This document shows, in pieces, positions 6,914-54,067 of a stretch of DNA of 64,000 nt. The translations under genes and the position numbers were made by a program. Origin of the DNA: Kordiimonas marina (GTDB lineage Bacteria; Pseudomonadota; Alphaproteobacteria; Sphingomonadales; Kordiimonadaceae); contig NZ_JAINDF010000004.1 of the NCBI RefSeq assembly GCF_023006325.1, positions 248,001 through 312,000 of the forward strand. Reading direction: 5' to 3'. Numbering within the stretch: the first letter of the stretch is position 1; every line of letters begins with the position of its first letter. The notes below the pieces were generated by a model. It was given only the letters and a program-made list of their open reading frames with translations. It made no database searches and was not told where the DNA came from.

Positions 6914-7567
6914 ATGGAAATTGAAGACCTGAACCTGCCGGATCATGGCGCAGAACTTTGGTCCGGCGTTCTCCCTGAAAATATTTTGGAACCCTTGCGG
7001 GCAGAATTAGGGGCCAGCAGCCTCGAACCGGACCGCGGCGGCCTTAGGGGGGCGGACCTTCAGTTTCCCGGTGTTGCAGCATTGGCAAGAAACCAACACC
7101 TGCTTGCCCGGGTTGGCGCACACCTCCCAACTCCGCCCCGCCTGATCCGCGCGATCCTGTTCGACAAAAGCCCCACCCGCAACTGGCTGGTTGCCTGGCA
7201 TCAGGACAAGACCGTTGCCTGCGCTGAAAAACATGACCTGCCGGGTTGGAGCAATTGGACCTTCAAAGATGGCCTCCATCATGCCCAACCGCCGCGCTCG
7301 GTTCTGGACGCCATGCTTACAGTACGAGTTCACCTGGATGGCGCCGACGAAAACAATGGATGCCTCAAGATCATTTCCGGCTCCCACCGGCTAGGCATCC
7401 TTGCCCAGGCCGATGTATCCCGACATACGGAGGGGGCTGAGGCTGTCCTTTGCCGGGCACAGGCTGGCGACATTCTCGCCATGCGCCCTCTTCTACTGCA
7501 TGCCTCATCTAAGGCTTTATCGCACCAGCCCCGGCGTATTCTTCACCTGGAATTCGGCGCCGCCTAA
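6914..7567 (+). CDS. Phytanoyl-CoA dioxygenase (PhyH) family protein
   Basis: A 217-residue non-heme Fe(II)/2-oxoglutarate-dependent oxygenase. The metal motif H-x-D is seen as WHQDKT (H96, D98), and a distal His in LLLHASS plus the 2-oxoglutarate-binding Arg in RRILHLEF complete the usual set. ISGSHRLG is typical of the family. ATG 6914 is preferred over 6908 because AGGG then has proper spacing. The substrate is not known. It converges with trmB and the two stop codons overlap. Confidence 0.85.
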   Translation: MEIEDLNLPDHGAELWSGVLPENILEPLRAELGASSLEPDRGGLRGADLQFPGVAALARNQHLLARVGAHLPTPPRLIRAILFDKSPTRNWLVAWHQDKTVACAEKHDLPGWSNWTFKDGLHHAQPPRSVLDAMLTVRVHLDGADENNGCLKIISGSHRLGILAQADVSRHTEGAEAVLCRAQAGDILAMRPLLLHASSKALSHQPRRILHLEFGAA

Positions 7568-45328: not shown

Positions 45329-45413
45329 GGAAGTGTGTCAGATAGGGTCACTTTTTATTGTTAAAGCCTGACAGGCATCCGGGCTGATTGATCAGACTGA
45401 TAGGGGAATGAAC

Positions 45414-46115
45414 ATGCGTGTTCTTCTAATTGAAGACGATCCGACGATGACCCGCAGCATCGAACTGATGCTGAACGCTGAAGGTTTCAATGTGTACAGC
45501 ACAGACCTTGGCGAAGAAGGGCTCGATCTCGGTAAGCTCTATGACTATGACATTATCCTCCTGGACCTGAACCTCCCGGACATGCATGGCTATGACGTGC
45601 TCAAGAAGCTGCGTACGGCCAAGGTCAATACGCCGATCCTGATCCTGTCCGGCCTCACGGAAATGGAAAACAAGGTCAAGGGCCTTGGCTTCGGCGCGGA
45701 TGATTACCTGACCAAACCTTTCCACAAGGAAGAACTGGTCGCCCGCATCCATGCCATTGTCCGCCGCTCCAAGGGCCATAGCCAGTCGATCATCAAGACC
45801 GGCAAGCTTTCGGTTAACCTGGACACCAAGACCGTTGAAGTCGCGGGCCAGCGCGTACACCTGACCGGCAAGGAATATGCGATGCTGGAGCTGCTTTCGC
45901 TTCGCAAGGGCAGCACGCTGACCAAGGAAATGTTCCTCAACCATCTTTATGGCGGCATCGACGAGCCGGAGTTGAAGATCATCGACGTCTTCATCTGCAA
46001 GCTCAGGAAGAAGCTGGCAGCCGCATCCGAGGGCGACAATTACATCGAAACCGTCTGGGGCCGAGGCTATGTGCTGAGGAACCCGTCAGAGGAAAGCGAT
46101 GAAGCCGTCGCCTGA
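45414..46115 (+). CDS. ctrA: Cell-cycle response regulator CtrA
   Basis: A 233-residue OmpR-type response regulator, the master cell-cycle regulator of alphaproteobacteria. The receiver has the acidic pocket EDDP, phospho-acceptor D51 in LLDLNLPD and Lys in [10 protein letters not shown]. The winged-helix DNA-binding domain (about 125-230) contains [17 protein letters not shown] and [12 protein letters not shown]-like segments. ATG 45414 is chosen because AGGGGA then sits six bases upstream; ATG 45408 is too close. ChpT, its phosphodonor, is encoded in the same window. Confidence 0.97.
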
Positions 46116-46937: not shown

Positions 46938-47780
46938 TCAGCCCAGCCCCATCAGTTTCTCAGCGGCGCCATCGGTCGGCACATACATGCCGCGATGACC
47001 ACGAACAGGGCGGAAGGCGTCCGTGATACCGAGCACGGTTTCCGCCGCCCCCAGGAACAGCGTTCCATCATCAGCAAGACATTTGCGCATCCGTTCCAGA
47101 ACGCCCTTCTTGGTGGTCTGGTCGAAATAGATCAGCACGTTGCGGCAATAGATAACGTCGAACGTGCCCATGCCGATAAAGTTGCTCAACAGGTTAAAGG
47201 GCCTGAAGGTGACCATGTTGCGGATATCGTCGCTGATGCGCCACTGGTCGCCTTCCTGACGGAAATATTTGATCAGCATCTGGATCGGCAAACCGCGCTG
47301 GACCTCAAACTGGCTGTAGGTGCCAGCCTTGGCTTTCTCCAGCACCTGGGTGCAGATGTCGGTGCCGACAATCTCAATATTCCAGTTCTGCCACTTCATC
47401 CAGTTTTCACGCAGCAGGATGGCCAGCGAATAGGGTTCCTGGCCGGTCGAAGCCGCCGCGCACCAGATGCGCAGGCGTTTCTGCGTCCCGCGGGCCTTGT
47501 CCATCGCCGGCAGCACATGATCCTTGAACAGCTCGAACGGCGTATTATCCCGGAAAAAGAAGGACTCGTTAGTCGTCATCGCTTCGGTGACATCCTTGAT
47601 CAGGCCCTCATCCCGGCTCATCCGCAGCTTCTGGACAAGCGCGTCGAGCGTATCGAGCCCGCGCTTGCGCGCCAAAGGCGTCAGCCGGCTTTCCAGCAGA
47701 TACACCTTGTCAGGCGTCAGCATCAGACCAGACCGTTCCTTGAGCATACCGGAAAGGAATTCAAAATCTTCCGTCTTCAT
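46938..47780 (-). CDS. cheR: Chemotaxis protein methyltransferase CheR
   Basis: A 280-residue SAM-dependent enzyme that methylates glutamates on chemoreceptors. The N-terminal all-helical CheR domain covers about residues 1-80. The SAM-binding part has IWCAAASTGQEPYSLAI, and later DVIYCRNVLIYFD is a family signature. It overlaps the cheB stop by four bases (ATGA) and is the last gene of the minus-strand chemotaxis operon. Confidence 0.96.
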   Translation of the reverse strand: MKTEDFEFLSGMLKERSGLMLTPDKVYLLESRLTPLARKRGLDTLDALVQKLRMSRDEGLIKDVTEAMTTNESFFFRDNTPFELFKDHVLPAMDKARGTQKRLRIWCAAASTGQEPYSLAILLRENWMKWQNWNIEIVGTDICTQVLEKAKAGTYSQFEVQRGLPIQMLIKYFRQEGDQWRISDDIRNMVTFRPFNLLSNFIGMGTFDVIYCRNVLIYFDQTTKKGVLERMRKCLADDGTLFLGAAETVLGITDAFRPVRGHRGMYVPTDGAAEKLMGLG

Positions 47781-49069
47781 CCAATTCCTCCCTGTATCCG
47801 CTTGGCGGTAGCTTGACCCAGCTCCTCAACCGGTAACACTTCGGTACATAAGCCTGCCGTGGCAACAGCGCCAGGCATCCCCCAAACAACACTGGAGGCT
47901 TCATCCTGCGCCAGCACGGTGCCACCGGCCCGCGTCAGTTCACGCGCGCCTTTGAGGCCATCATGGCCCATACCGGTCAGCACCACTGCCAGGGCACGTT
48001 CGCCAAACGTGGCAGCAAGGCTCCGGAACAAGGGGTCCACTGCCGGACGGCAAAAATTCTCGGGCGGTTCATCGGTCAGATGGAGATGAACGCCTTTATC
48101 GTCTTCCGCCACTTCCATGTGACGGCCGCCAGGGGCGACATAAATCTTGCCCGCTTCCGGTACGATACCGTCACGCGCTTCCTGTGCCGGCCAACCGGTC
48201 GCCTGCCCCAGATGCTCCGCCAGGATCGCCGTGAAGGTCGCCGGCATATGCTGGGTGATCAGGATCGGCACATTCGGGGCCTTGCCGAAAGCCTTGAAAA
48301 ACTTCATCAGCGCCTGCGGCCCCCCGGTGGATGAGCCCACCGCCAGGATTTTCGGACGCTTGAAAGACCCAGTCCGCAGTTTGATCTCGCGGCCCAACAT
48401 GGCGCTGATCGGAAGCGGCTGGTCCTCTTTGTCCGCGACTTGCGGCCTGACCGCTGCTGCAGCCGGGCGCGCACTGGCCACGGTTACAGGCCGGGCCACA
48501 GGACGGCGCGCGGTGACAAACCCACCCGCAGACTGCGCAGGGCGCAGGCCCGGACGCGCAGGCGTCAGCCCCGGCATATCCTCGCCCGTGGTCGGCAACG
48601 CTTCACCGCGTTTTTTGCGGCGGCGGCCAGCCCAGGCCTTGACCTTGTCAACCAACTCGCGCCGGAAATCGATGCTGGCGTTCACAGACCGGGCCGTCTC
48701 CGGCTTCGGCACATAGTCGACCGCGCCCATCTGCAGGCTGCGCAAGCTGATTTCCGCGTTCTTGCGGGTCAGCGTCGATGCCATGACCACCTGGATATCA
48801 GGCTTCATGTCGATCATCTTCGGCAGCGCGGTCAGCCCATCCATCTCCGGCATTTCAATGTCGAGAACAACGACTTCTATGTCATTCAACCCAAGCTGAC
48901 GCAGCGCCACAGCGCCATTGTTGGCGGTGGTCACAACCTCAATATCGGGATCTTCAGACAGATACCGGCTCAAAAAACCGCGAATGATGGCGCTATCGTC
49001 AACGACCATTACCCGATACGGGCCTCCGTCCTTGACCGCCACATTCGTATTGGACACGCCTGATGTCAC
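47777..49069 (-). CDS. cheB: Chemotaxis methylesterase CheB
   Basis: A 430-residue response regulator that demethylates chemoreceptors when phosphorylated. The receiver (about 17-130) has DDSAI and the phospho-Asp in VVLDIEMPEMDG. A long 100-residue Pro/Ala/Arg linker precedes the esterase domain, which has catalytic Ser in VGSSTGGPQAL, His in QHMPATF and Asp in TGMGHDGLKG. It is longer than the usual 350 residues because of the linker. The start is GTG 49069 without a strong ribosome-binding site. Confidence 0.95.
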   Translation of the reverse strand: MTSGVSNTNVAVKDGGPYRVMVVDDSAIIRGFLSRYLSEDPDIEVVTTANNGAVALRQLGLNDIEVVVLDIEMPEMDGLTALPKMIDMKPDIQVVMASTLTRKNAEISLRSLQMGAVDYVPKPETARSVNASIDFRRELVDKVKAWAGRRRKKRGEALPTTGEDMPGLTPARPGLRPAQSAGGFVTARRPVARPVTVASARPAAAAVRPQVADKEDQPLPISAMLGREIKLRTGSFKRPKILAVGSSTGGPQALMKFFKAFGKAPNVPILITQHMPATFTAILAEHLGQATGWPAQEARDGIVPEAGKIYVAPGGRHMEVAEDDKGVHLHLTDEPPENFCRPAVDPLFRSLAATFGERALAVVLTGMGHDGLKGARELTRAGGTVLAQDEASSVVWGMPGAVATAGLCTEVLPVEELGQATAKRIQGGIG

Positions 49070-49085
49070 TGATTGTTAATCCTGC

Positions 49086-49451
49086 CTACAGCAGCCCGAC
49101 CTGGGAGAATTTCGCTTCGATAATCTCGCGGTCGAACGGTTTCATAATATATTCGTTAGCACCGGCCTCGATCGCGGTACGGATGTGGGCCATATCGTTT
49201 TCTGTGGTGCAGAAGACCACGACCGGCTGTTCAACCCCTTCGCGGGAGCGCAAGGCCTTGAGGAAATCCAACCCGTCCATCACGGGCATGTTCCAGTCCA
49301 AGAGCACCACATCGGGCATATTCCGGTCGCACACATCGAGAGCATCCTGGCCGTCAACGGCTTCTTCAATCTCGAAATTGAGTTCTTCGAGAATGCGCCG
49401 GGCGACCTTGCGGATCACTTTCGAGTCATCGACGACAAGACATAGTTTCAT
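49086..49451 (-). CDS. cheY: Chemotaxis response regulator CheY
   Basis: A 121-residue stand-alone receiver. The acidic pocket is VDDSK, phospho-Asp lies in DVVLLDWNMPVMDG, and the conserved Thr and Lys appear in FCTTEN and MKPFD. The pattern and operon place suggest the CheY that is phosphorylated by CheA to control the flagellar switch. It lies 16 bp before cheB and 63 bp after cheW. Confidence 0.93.
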   Translation of the reverse strand: MKLCLVVDDSKVIRKVARRILEELNFEIEEAVDGQDALDVCDRNMPDVVLLDWNMPVMDGLDFLKALRSREGVEQPVVVFCTTENDMAHIRTAIEAGANEYIMKPFDREIIEAKFSQVGLL

Positions 49452-49514: not shown

Positions 49515-50003
49515 TTAGGCCGCTTTGTCCTTGCTTTCAAAGGCCAGAAGTTTGTCGACGTCCAAAATGGGCAAGAGCTCTTTTTCAAGCCGGTAAATAC
49601 CACGGCTGACTTCGCGCCAGCGCGGGTCCAGCGTGACCGGGTTTTTCTCGAACAGCTGGTTGTCGAGCGACAGCACTTCCCCAACGCTGTCGATCTGAAG
49701 GCTGTAGGGCTCTTCATTATGCTCAACCACCACCGACATGCTGACTTTCCCCTCTTCAAGCGGCGGGAAGCCGAGACGGCGGCGAAGGTCGATCGCGGTC
49801 ACGATCCGGCCACGCAGGTTGAGGACACCGGAGACCCACTCGGGCGCGAGCGGAATTCTGGTGATCTGCTGGGCATTCAAGACATCATGCACCCCGAGAA
49901 CCGGGATGCCGAGGGTCTGCCCCGCGAGGCGGACGGTCACATAATCCTGCGACCCAGTGGTGACGACATTCAGGTCCTTGCGGACGACCATATCGCTACT
50001 CAT
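49515..50003 (-). CDS. cheW: Chemotaxis coupling protein CheW
   Basis: A 162-residue adaptor that links chemoreceptors to CheA. The CheW fold spans about residues 18-150, with VRLAGQTLGIPVLGVHDVL and WVSGVLNLRGRIVTAIDLR. Its start overlaps the cheA stop by four bases, so the two are translationally coupled. Confidence 0.95.
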   Translation of the reverse strand: MSSDMVVRKDLNVVTTGSQDYVTVRLAGQTLGIPVLGVHDVLNAQQITRIPLAPEWVSGVLNLRGRIVTAIDLRRRLGFPPLEEGKVSMSVVVEHNEEPYSLQIDSVGEVLSLDNQLFEKNPVTLDPRWREVSRGIYRLEKELLPILDVDKLLAFESKDKAA

Positions 50004-53000
50004 GCCGCGTCTCCTTTGATCTTCAGTTGCTGCGACAGGCTTCTGAGCAGCGTTTCCTTATCGAATTTGGCGACATAATCGTCGAAGCCAGCTTCATGGC
50101 CGCGCGCAATGTCACGTTCGGTCGCCAACGCCGACAGCGCGATCAGCGGCAGCTCGGCCCAGCGGCTGCCGTCCCGGATTTCACGGGCGAAATCAAAGCC
50201 GTTCATATCCGGCATTTCGATGTCGGAGATGACCATATCGAACATGTAGCCTTCTTCCATCAGCCTGAGCGCAACAGCAGCGCTCGAGACCGCCTTGACC
50301 TCATAGCCCGCCACCGTCAGCACCGGCTTCAGCATGTTGCGGAAGAAGTCGCTGTCGTCGATGAGCAGCAGGCTCACGCCTCTTGAGGGCGCGACATCGT
50401 CGGCCATGTCCCGGCTCTTGAGCCAGTCTGCGAAAGCGAGGCTCAGGAAATGGGCAACATCGATGACTTCCGATGCCTTGCCGGCGATCACCGCCGAGCC
50501 GACAACACCCGGCCGATCCGAGGCCAGCTTGATATCGAGCTTATCTTCGACGATATCGAGGATTTCATCGACGGCGAGGCCCATGGTGTATTCGCGGTCG
50601 GTAAAGACAAGCACGGGCTGACGGCCGTCTTCCTTCAGCGCCATATTGTCGTCTGCGAGGATGAGCGGCATCAGGGCACCCCGATACTGAACCATCAGGC
50701 GGCCATCCGATTGCTCGACGCTGGAGATATCGATTTCCTCAAGCCGCGCAACGAGGCCAAGCGGAACGGCCCGCGGGTTGGTCCCGCCAGCCCGGAACAG
50801 AAGCATGCTTTCCTTCTCGTCCTGTACCGTGCGTTTCTTGGCTTCCTCGTGGGCTTTTTCTTCTTCGTGCTCGTGATCGCCCGCGCTCGAATTCGCAAGC
50901 GCTGCGATGCCGTTCGGATCGAGGATCATGATCACGCTACCGTCGCCCAGAATGGTGTTCCCCGAATAAATTTCCAGGTCCTTCAGGATCGGCGCCACCG
51001 GCTTGACCACGATTTCCTCGGTGTCGAACACCTGGTCGACGACGATGCCGAAGGTAAAGGTGCCAACCTGCGCCACAACGATAAAGTCGTCCTTGTTGTC
51101 GCGGGCATCGATTTCCTCCCGCGTCATAAAACCAAGGATTTCATTGAGATAGACGAGCGGCAGAAGCCTGTTCCGGAGCCTGAGCACCGGCGTGTTCTTG
51201 ATCGTCTCGATCTTATGCTCGCTGTTCTGTGCTGCCCGGACAAGTTCAAGAACGCTGATCTGTGGGATAGCGTAACGTTCATCCTGTGCCTTGACGATGA
51301 GACCCGCGACGATAGCCAGCGTCAGCGGGATCTTGATCGCGAAGCGCGAGCCCTTGCCTTCGACCGACTGCATATCGATGGTGCCGCCGATCTTTTCGAT
51401 GTTCGAGCGCACCACGTCCATGCCGACACCACGGCCCGACACGCTGGTGATCTGCTCGGCGGTCGAGAAGCCCGGATGGAAAATGAATTTCTGGATCTGG
51501 GCGTCGGACATTTCGGCGAGTTCCGCCTCGGTGGCGAGCCGCTTCTCCAGAATTTTCTTCGACAGTTTCGAGACGGAAATCCCGCGCCCGTCGTCCTTGA
51601 TCTCGATGATGATGTGACCGCCTTCATGATAGGCGTTCAGGGTAATGGTACCGCCCTCATCCTTGCCAAGGGCAATCCGCTCGGCCGGGGTTTCAATGCC
51701 GTGGTCAGCAGAGTTCCGGACCATATGGGTGAGCGGATCCTTGATAAGCTCAAGAACCTGACGGTCGAGCTCCGTATCGGCGCCGAGCATTTCAAGCTCG
51801 ATCTTCTTGTCGAGTTCGACGGTAAGGTCACGCACGATCCGCGGCAGTTTCGCCCAGGCGTTGCCGATCGGCTGCATCCGCGTCTTCATCACGCTTTCCT
51901 GCAGCTCGGTAGTGCACTGGCTCAGCCGCTGGAGTGGGACGCCCAGCTCGGAATTTTCAACATTGCGGGTAATCTGCAGAAGCTGGTTCCGGGTCAGCAC
52001 CAGCTCGGACACCAGGTTCATCAGTTCTTCGAGAAGATCGACGTTCACCCGGATAGACTGGCTGACGCGCTTGCCGCTTTCGCCCCCGGCTGCGGCCTGC
52101 TCGCCGCTTTTTGCTTCACGGCCGGCCTTGTTGGTTTCGGCCTTGGTGATGGCTTTCGAGGCACTCAGGACAGCCTCACGCACCAGCTCGAAGCTCATGA
52201 CGGCTTCGTCAGCCGTGTCGCCATCCACCTGGCATTCAACCAGGACATCCTTGACCAGCCCAATAAGCGTATTGAAATTCTGTTCGGAAAAACCGGAAAC
52301 GGTAACGAGTTGGCGGCCGACATTGTCGGCGGCGTCCAGGTCATCCTTATAAAGCGCCAGCATCAGGCCCATAAAGCGGCCCTTGCGCTGTTCTGCGTCA
52401 ACACTTGCGAAGAACTTGCCCAGTTCCTGGTGCTTTTCCAGCCGCTGGGCCAAAAGGTGCGCGGCCACTGCAAGCGTGTCCTCACCCCCGACACGCTCGA
52501 ACAGACTTTTCTGCGCGCCGCTTGTCCCAGCCGCACTCGGTGCGGGGGCGGCCTCGTCTGCCTCATCCGGCCCCGGGGCATTGGCAAAGGCGGCTTCCAG
52601 TTCCGCAAGCGAAACTTCGCCTGGCTTGAGCACACGGCCAAGGCCCGGGTCGATAATCTCACCCTCAATCGTATCGGGTTCAGGCGCGGGGGCGGCATCC
52701 TTGCCTTCCGCGATGGCATCCAGCCGGGCGATCAGGTCGGTGTCGTCGCCTTCCGGCTCCTCCTCCGTCGCCTCAAGCCCTGCCAGGATTTCCTTGATCC
52801 GGTCCAGGCTTTCCAGGATCACCGTCACCGAATGCTCGGAGACCTGAAGCTCGCCATCCCGGAATTTGCCAAGAACGTTTTCAGACGCGTGCGCCACCGA
52901 TTCCAGCCGCGGCAACCCCAGGAAGCCGCATGTCCCCTTGATGGTGTGGACCAGGCGGAAAATGTTATCCAGCACTTCCTTGTTGTTGGGGTCCTGCTCC

Positions 53001-53077
53001 AGCTTCACCAGCTCGACGTCGACAACATCGATGCTTTCCCCGGTTTCGGTAAGGAATTCGTTTAACAGATCGTCCAT
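50000..53077 (-). CDS. cheA: Hybrid chemotaxis histidine kinase CheA
   Basis: A 1025-residue CheA. In order: Hpt (1-105, phospho-His44 in RLVHTIKGTCGFL); an acidic linker; a globin-like region (about 190-312, beginning SLFERVGG) without a heme-ligand His; the dimerisation helices (about 340-405); the HATPase (about 410-620, with RNSADHGIE, DDGRGI and GRGVGMDVV); a first CheW-like domain (to about 770); a Glu/His-rich linker; a second CheW-like domain (about 790-905); and a C-terminal receiver with LLLIDDSDFFR and phospho-Asp in VISDIEMPDMNG. ATG 53077 matches the Hpt start. The classical P2 domain is not recognised. Confidence 0.93.
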   Translation of the reverse strand: MDDLLNEFLTETGESIDVVDVELVKLEQDPNNKEVLDNIFRLVHTIKGTCGFLGLPRLESVAHASENVLGKFRDGELQVSEHSVTVILESLDRIKEILAGLEATEEEPEGDDTDLIARLDAIAEGKDAAPAPEPDTIEGEIIDPGLGRVLKPGEVSLAELEAAFANAPGPDEADEAAPAPSAAGTSGAQKSLFERVGGEDTLAVAAHLLAQRLEKHQELGKFFASVDAEQRKGRFMGLMLALYKDDLDAADNVGRQLVTVSGFSEQNFNTLIGLVKDVLVECQVDGDTADEAVMSFELVREAVLSASKAITKAETNKAGREAKSGEQAAAGGESGKRVSQSIRVNVDLLEELMNLVSELVLTRNQLLQITRNVENSELGVPLQRLSQCTTELQESVMKTRMQPIGNAWAKLPRIVRDLTVELDKKIELEMLGADTELDRQVLELIKDPLTHMVRNSADHGIETPAERIALGKDEGGTITLNAYHEGGHIIIEIKDDGRGISVSKLSKKILEKRLATEAELAEMSDAQIQKFIFHPGFSTAEQITSVSGRGVGMDVVRSNIEKIGGTIDMQSVEGKGSRFAIKIPLTLAIVAGLIVKAQDERYAIPQISVLELVRAAQNSEHKIETIKNTPVLRLRNRLLPLVYLNEILGFMTREEIDARDNKDDFIVVAQVGTFTFGIVVDQVFDTEEIVVKPVAPILKDLEIYSGNTILGDGSVIMILDPNGIAALANSSAGDHEHEEEKAHEEAKKRTVQDEKESMLLFRAGGTNPRAVPLGLVARLEEIDISSVEQSDGRLMVQYRGALMPLILADDNMALKEDGRQPVLVFTDREYTMGLAVDEILDIVEDKLDIKLASDRPGVVGSAVIAGKASEVIDVAHFLSLAFADWLKSRDMADDVAPSRGVSLLLIDDSDFFRNMLKPVLTVAGYEVKAVSSAAVALRLMEEGYMFDMVISDIEMPDMNGFDFAREIRDGSRWAELPLIALSALATERDIARGHEAGFDDYVAKFDKETLLRSLSQQLKIKGDAA

Positions 53078-53205: not shown

Positions 53206-53859
53206 TTAGCCGCCTGTTTGCATCTCGGCCATCTCCAAGCTTGCGGTAACCCGAACCGACGTTTCGGTCACAGCCTCGATGGAAACACGGCCGCCATGAT
53301 CCCTTGCGACCGAGGCCGCCAGATAGGCCGGTGCCGTTCTTGGCTCCAGCTCCTCATCTGTCGGCGCGCCCGTCATCACTGCCTGCACGGCAGGAGACAG
53401 GATGACACGGTCACCCGAGCCTTCGATGTTTATTGCAGCTTTTCCGTCCATCATCTTCATGCTTACGGTCAGCGCACCGCCCCGGATCAGCGATTCCGAC
53501 ACAACCAGGGCCAAATTCAGAAGAAGCTTCACAAGGCCCTTCGGCGCATTCGGTACGTCGACCTGCCATTCAAGCGCAACCCGGCTGCCATCCAGAAACG
53601 CCCTGAGCGCGCGCTCGGCCTCCCGCATGTCGAGCTGGGCCGAAAAGCCGCCCGCAGCCCCGAAGGCAAGACGGAAAAATTGCAATTTATTGCTGGTTTG
53701 GCGGGTGGACTTTTCGATGAGGTCGATCACGGCCTCCCGCATCGAGGCATCATGTTCTTCCTGCAGGATTTCCAGGCCGTTGTTGATCGCCCCCACCGGG
53801 CTGACCAAATCATGACACAGGCGCGAACACAAAAGTGCCGCGAAATCCATATTCTTCAT
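53206..53859 (-). CDS. chpT: Histidine phosphotransferase ChpT
   Basis: A 217-residue phosphotransferase that in alphaproteobacteria passes phosphate from CckA to CtrA and CpdR. The N-terminal four-helix region carries LCSRLCHDLVSPVGAINNG with the phospho-His, and KLQFFRLAFGAAGG follows; the C-terminal part resembles a degenerate HATPase. ATG 53859 is chosen because GGGGAGAAG precedes it. It is upstream of cheA on the same strand with a 128-bp gap. Co-transcription with cheA is likely but not certain. Confidence 0.94.
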   Translation of the reverse strand: MKNMDFAALLCSRLCHDLVSPVGAINNGLEILQEEHDASMREAVIDLIEKSTRQTSNKLQFFRLAFGAAGGFSAQLDMREAERALRAFLDGSRVALEWQVDVPNAPKGLVKLLLNLALVVSESLIRGGALTVSMKMMDGKAAINIEGSGDRVILSPAVQAVMTGAPTDEELEPRTAPAYLAASVARDHGGRVSIEAVTETSVRVTASLEMAEMQTGG

Positions 53860-54067
53860 CAGGGCTTCTCCCCACATTTACTGCCAAGGCCGCTGGCTGG
53901 AAGGCGCCCGCTCCGCGCCTGTTTCCCGCCCCCTTTTGCTGCCGTCAGACCGGCCGCTGGGGACATTTTTCCTTGCCATTTATGACCTCTGTGTCAGAAC
54001 CATAGCGGGCGAAAGCCACCGGGCCAAGTGACGAAACGATTTCAGACCATTTTTACACGAGGAAACT

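Follow-up and report, generated by a model that had tools for sequence, protein, structure and literature searches.

Group 1 truncated hemoglobins (PF01152; HbN, cyanoglobin, and THB1) share sequence ancestry, helix order, and a predicted 2-on-2 fold with the CheA domain described herein. Also common to both are the initial GG motif, the FF found in the CD region, and the G..xxF segment that precedes helix G. Multidomain truncated hemoglobins were reportedly reviewed by Hade and colleagues in 2017. The CheA globin differs from these proteins in that it is internal to a kinase and lacks the proximal His, TyrB10, the distal Gln, and the GGP..Y.G loop. Globin-coupled sensors (HemAT and DosC; PF11563) likewise place a globin within chemotaxis or signaling machinery. 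However, their globin serves as the input of a receptor or cyclase, whereas the domain examined here is a truncated group 1 globin inside CheA between P1 and P3. Similarly, the Bac_globin described for Corallococcus coralloides in the available text of PMC6194562 is part of a chemoreceptor rather than of CheA itself. The RsbR N-domain, pXO1-118, and the MabR N-domain likewise exhibit a globin fold without a heme ligand in a signaling protein, and the P2/CheY-binding domain occupies the same slot between P1 and P3, although the CheA globin is unrelated to P2 and all-helical.

In a survey of 13,673 CheAs (Berry et al. 2023, PMC10782961), the domains covered by the main text are P2, receiver, additional Hpt or CheW, and CheC/CheX. 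The words globin and heme are absent from that main text. The F5-class CheAs presented there resemble the protein examined here in core layout, which includes a receiver and a pair of CheW domains, and are likened to it by layout alone. The open-licence literature, searched mostly by title and the start of the abstract, yielded no account of a globin within CheA, and neither did a word search in the available text of PMC4720485, PMC7082302, PMC6194562, PMC13401364, PMC1457004, PMC3770913, PMC3245306, and PMC5907407. The domain we describe is one branch of a wider, apparently unreported CheA-globin architecture that includes heme-type members.

The window analyzed is a stretch of 64,000 nucleotides from Kordiimonas marina. 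Its CheA protein has the following parts.

50000..53077, minus strand: cheA, 1025 aa, ATG at 53077; P1 - globin - P3 - P4 - CheW - CheW - receiver
52790..53071, minus strand: P1 (Hpt) domain, residues 3-96; Pfam PF01627, E 8.7e-16 (whole protein)
52517..52762, minus strand: linker A, from P1 to the globin, residues 106-187
52586..52642, minus strand: linear motif LGRVLKPGEVSLAELEAAF (LGRxLKPGEVSLxELExAF) in linker A, residues 146-164, by eye
52148..52510, minus strand: group 1 truncated-globin domain without a heme ligand (predicted), residues 190-310
52070..52147, minus strand: linker B, from the globin to P3, variable, residues 311-336
51881..52063, minus strand: P3 dimerization domain, residues 339-399; Pfam PF02895
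51320..51739, minus strand: P4 ATPase domain, residues 447-586; Pfam PF02518
50903..51304, minus strand: P5, the first CheW domain, residues 592-725; Pfam PF01584
50042..50368, minus strand: C-terminal receiver domain, residues 904-1012; Pfam PF00072

P1, P3, P4, and P5 are all present as judged by Pfam, and His44 of P1 is assigned as the phospho-His from the sequence HTIKGT. At E<=10, the protein matches Hpt, H-kinase_dim, HATPase_c, two CheW stretches, Response_reg, and, weakly, HATPase_c_3. Residues 97-338 have no Pfam match at this threshold, and the Pfam P2 model is absent among the six families matched. Many P2 domains are missed by HMMER, according to the available text of PMC10782961.

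The gene belongs to a chemotaxis cluster on the minus strand, in the order ChpT-like gene, cheA, cheW, cheY, cheB, and cheR, and a flagellar-type ATPase is found beyond the cluster.

53206..53877, minus strand: histidine phosphotransferase upstream of cheA, which we take to be ChpT-like; Pfam PF10090, E 8.7e-29
49515..50003, minus strand: cheW, the gene next after cheA
49086..49451, minus strand: cheY-like single receiver
47777..49069, minus strand: cheB
46938..47780, minus strand: cheR
45408-46115 of the window: receiver plus Trans_reg_C protein, presumably a CtrA-like regulator

The flanking of the che cluster by the CtrA-like regulator and the ChpT-like phosphotransferase suggests a possible link by phosphotransfer to the cell-cycle relay.

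A sequence-only reading had placed a group 1 truncated globin at about residues 190-312 of CheA. The corresponding coordinates, 52141..52510, are exact, and the segments cited for it (SLFERVGGED, ELGKFFASVDAEQ, GRFMGLMLALY, and FSEQNFNTLIGLVKDVL) are all found in CheA. When the single globin sequence from the window was compared with the PDB, all 11 matches at E<=10 were truncated globins, the best having an E of 0.002. A profile built from 18 heme-less relatives recovered 29 matches, of which 27 were globins (best E 8.8e-11) and two were not (E 0.55 and 1.6). The profile comparison scored the relationship with group 1 truncated hemoglobins of solved structure at 98.4%. The control comparison between the profile of the neighboring Hpt domain and the globin profile yielded a probability of 0.2%. 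The Hpt control and the PDB matches of both sequence and profile rule out a chance resemblance, and these matches bear out the proposed group 1 identity. The structure prediction likewise gives a 2-on-2 globin fold for the window domain, as had been anticipated.

The expected match to PF01152 did not materialize for the window CheA: its sequence alone gives no hit, and the window's genome as a whole has no match at E<=10. The model is matched by 19 of the 29 members of a set designated A1 at E<=10. Its cut-off is passed by seven of eight other insert-bearing CheAs tested, and each of these seven carries one or more heme-type globins. The eighth, a heme-less CheA of family f180, scores 20.4 of 21 bits. 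PF11563 (Protoglobin) has no match in the window CheA, whose globin is internal rather than N-terminal, and it scored in two of the 29 A1 members and in the heme-type CheAs L078 and L079. An assembly or frame error is ruled out by the identical architecture that stands open in many independent genomes. Judging from sequence comparison and the predicted fold, the domain between P1 and P3 of the window CheA is a real, conserved truncated globin that is predicted to be heme-free. The earlier proposal of an RsbR-type non-heme globin inserted between the phospho-His domain and the kinase core survives with respect to the globin without a heme ligand, whereas RsbR is probably not its nearest relation.

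The residues that would contact heme were located by alignment of the CheA globins to L046. Helix positions B7, B10, E, and F8 are given in globin numbering.

52457..52459, minus strand: His207, position B7
52448..52450, minus strand: Ala210, position B10; Tyr in heme-type globins
52373..52375, minus strand: Phe235, distal helix-E Gln position
52313..52315, minus strand: Arg255, position F8; proximal His in heme-type globins

The window globin thus lacks the proximal His at F8 as well as the distal TyrB10 and helix-E Gln, and the translation confirms the prior claim that no His lies between His217, itself not conserved, and residue 312. Based on these ligand positions, heme binding is predicted to be absent. 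Globins outside CheA (24 rows, 23 distinct, chosen as best matches to the profile rather than as a random sample) carry a His in the F8 window in 24 of 24 rows, TyrB10 in 24 of 24, and the distal Gln in 22 of 24. Among 72 CheA rows from the window's order (49 distinct), TyrB10 and the distal Gln each occur in none, and the only F8-window His (L145) is one place out of register. This represents a joint loss of all three residues in the order. The F8 column of these rows holds Arg (40), Phe (11), Ala (7), Lys (6), and others (8). The B10 column holds Ala (31), Ser (23), Gly (5), Cys (2), and His (11), and the distal position is occupied mostly by hydrophobic residues. B7, whose His207 the sequence-only reading had left unmentioned, is His in 71 of the 72, whereas most rows from elsewhere carry Asp or Glu at this position. 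The f180 CheAs (L134-L144) have His at both B7 and B10 and Phe at F8 in 11 of 11 rows, and this pocket is a remodeling different from that of Kordiimonadaceae.

Elsewhere in the class, 31 CheA rows (25 distinct) include 19 with an F8-window His and 16 with TyrB10. When defined by F8 His plus TyrB10, heme-type globins number ten, from nine CheAs in nine genomes and seven family codes: L046/L051, L066, L071/L081, L074/L083, L078, L079 (both), L082 (second), L084, for which the alignment is shifted at the heme-site positions, and L091. Three of these ten globins have another residue at the distal Gln position (Met in the first globin of L079, Leu in L084, and His in L091). L090, L092, and L093 (f38) have a His in the F8 window but also PheB10 and a shortened F region, and were not counted as heme-type. 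The residue count left out the CheA fragments L021, L024, L026, L045, L126, and L097 and the off-type globins L088 and L096. L066 and L094 come from one genome, G227, with 10% contamination.

Related CheAs in the family and in the wider order carry the same insert. In the window's family (f1), this CheA is present in 29 of 29 genomes. The globin and the kinase run together uninterrupted in 27 rows, and contig ends truncate the gene in G470 and G473. A contig scan identified the insert in 33 of 46 CheA loci (four of the 33 being fragments that show part of it), although one of the six scan patterns lies within the globin and thus biases the scan toward the insert. The globin profile matches 74 of 147 genomes of the order, and the architecture was read in families f1, f175, f178, f179, and f180. 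Across the class, the globin profile alone matches 69 of 385 genomes, stand-alone globins included, while a globin+P3+P4 profile matches 190 of 385. Among the best rows of the matches from these 190 genomes, at least 21 CheAs in 20 genomes and 12 family codes span globin and kinase. Among the matches listed for the latter profile in 398 phylum genomes, five reach the globin start, all alphaproteobacterial, and none from other classes starts before position 22. A tblastn search of plasmids with a heme-type CheA globin returned 36 records; the annotated ones among the matches listed are truncated hemoglobins, and none is named CheA.

The insert is not indispensable, because L028 and L029 lie inside the clade without a globin and because eight of the 29 family genomes carry a further CheA-type match without one. 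In addition, the CheA of L147 (G323) retains a strongly decayed globin remnant between P1 and P3 that was recognized by eye and is unreported by the globin profile.

The globin is patchily distributed in the class, and its presence requires nine changes on a tree of CheA cores with 91 rows, in which 40 of 88 inner branches are weak. L147 was labeled heme-free by eye in this tree. Tree labels follow the F8 His of the first globin, and L082, which has PheB10 there, was thus counted as heme. A smaller tree used 65 of 109 cores after near-copies above 95% identity were dropped; before that, fragments and cores of 300 residues or fewer, the latter including L046, L051, and L066, had been removed from 116 cores, with L051 and L066 restored for the 91-row tree. 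Heme-type and heme-free rows are intermixed within class groups of the CheA trees, which makes repeated loss of the heme site probable. A tree constrained to keep the CheA globins in a single group was not rejected (p-AU 0.607), a result that does not show one clade, and in the free globin tree, which has too few columns, some heme-type CheA globins mingle with stand-alone globins. One early insertion followed by many losses and several separate insertions both fit the CheA trees.

Conservation was examined with 21 Kordiimonadaceae-type CheAs (210 pairs). The globin has a median identity of 61%, 0% gaps, and a dN/dS of 0.177 (nine of 210 pairs usable, the rest saturated), which indicates that the domain is under purifying selection in the family. 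Its conservation is no higher than that of linker A or the receiver domain, and P1 is 96% identical in the same proteins. Linker A (61% identity, 6% gaps, dN/dS 0.215 from 11 of 210 pairs) is not especially variable within the family, whereas linker B is (23%, 14%, and 0.568 from 33 of 210 pairs). Across the globin CheAs examined, linker A ranges from 36 to 116 residues and linker B from 11 to 43. Given that the globin is gap-free with a low dN/dS while linker B varies, the fold is maintained on at least one variable tether.

We therefore modestly favor the possibility that a truncated-globin module has been kept heme-free and now acts as a tethered docking and regulatory domain, a role to which its position, linkers, and conservation point. 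The group 1 truncated hemoglobin domain occupies the slot held by P2 or a bare linker in other CheAs. Sequence comparison and structure prediction show that the proximal His and the distal Tyr and Gln are missing in several alphaproteobacterial lineages, including the clade around the window's family, with the fold retained. Hung like P2 between P1 and the dimerized kinase core, the globin could bind a partner such as P1, P4, CheY/CheB, or ChpT, and this binding would set the rate at which P1 meets the kinase or response regulators. Candidate contact residues are Asp200, His207, Arg212, Gly237, Asp245, and Glu297, which are conserved in the order and not so in stand-alone globins. This P2-like anatomy of globin plus tether argues for docking, or for control over phosphotransfer, more than for a rigid sensor lever. 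The LGRxLKPGEVSLxELExAF motif in linker A, possibly a docking peptide, occurs in the order clade and in several globin-free CheAs, is sometimes doubled (L036 and L033), and was not seen by eye in the linkers examined of other class globin CheAs.

Two CheAs, L079:2354-5953 (+) and L082:2-2620 (-), carry two globins, the first between P1 and P3 and the second nested between the halves of P5/CheW, through which CheA is coupled to CheW and to receptors. Both nested globins have F8 His, TyrB10, and the distal Gln. With heme-type globins placed in the P2 slot and in P5, control of the kinase by gases has to be considered seriously for these proteins, and in the heme-type relatives the encounter step of P1 could depend on O2 or NO. 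CheA, the switch at the center of bacterial navigation, may thus once have sensed gases directly. A broader scenario is conceivable, though we hold it with some doubt: some alphaproteobacterial CheAs would be receptor-independent O2 or NO sensors by way of a heme globin in the P2 slot (with a second in P5 in two genomes), and the window CheA would be a heme-free descendant whose input was rebuilt into another form of control.

Several other explanations for the heme-free domain can be weighed against docking. By analogy with known heme-free sensor globins (RsbR, pXO1-118, and MabR; available text of PMC11617747), a small molecule in the emptied globin pocket could alter kinase activity directly, in line with the direct input proposed in the sequence-only reading. 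The small residues at B10 (but His in 11 of 72 rows) and the mostly hydrophobic distal ones could leave a cavity, and the sixteen invariant columns in the 18 heme-less rows count in favor of such a sensor. Sensor domains are usually coupled to kinases by continuous helices. The linker from the globin to P3 is instead variable and carries indels, and we consider direct sensing unlikely. The same domain could be a relic of the former hemoglobin, or could serve only as a folded spacer that separates P1 from the kinase core, with neither ligand nor partner. Its absence in L028 and L029, its strong decay in L147 (by eye), and an evolutionary rate about as fast as that of linker A are consistent with this idea. 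However, the length and predicted fold are kept family-wide, dN/dS is 0.177, 16 columns are invariant in 18 rows, and the domain is retained in 29 of 29 family genomes, which makes a spacer quite improbable.

Alternatively, heme might still be bound through another ligand, either His207 at B7 or the f180 His at B10, for use in gas or redox sensing. His occupies B7 in 71 of the 72 order rows and B10 in 11, all from f180, and a globin with swapped sites is known (available text of PMC4476040). Because CheAs of the order lack F8 His as well as TyrB10 and the distal Gln, and because His217 is not conserved, we regard heme retention as highly doubtful. That the segment merely resembles a globin and is instead a plain helical linker, or a P2 that has diverged, is scarcely credible, even with PF01152 out of reach for the window sequence alone, given the globin matches of the profile and the PF01152-positive homologs at the same place in CheA.

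Whichever role the domain serves, a folded globin fills a stretch that, in P2-less CheAs, has been described as extended and unstructured. With heme-type and heme-free forms of a hemoglobin-derived CheA domain, receptor-free signal input to the kinase becomes directly testable. Moreover, one slot of one protein family here holds a natural progression from a gas-binding globin to a module without heme, which is good material on the re-use of sensor domains.

Three further proteins deserve mention, and two of them (L152 and L153) are additional globin fusions. In L150 (+), the CheA frame at 2936 has an insertion of about 65 residues that interrupts its first CheW domain. This insertion lies approximately where L079 and L082 have their nested globins, and no globin was detected in it. 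In L152 (+), the frame at 6982 encodes a heme-type truncated globin followed by two PAS-like repeats (by eye). Finally, the frame at 2960 in L153 (-) joins a segment that resembles receptor-signaling regions (by eye) to a C-terminal part that matches globins weakly.
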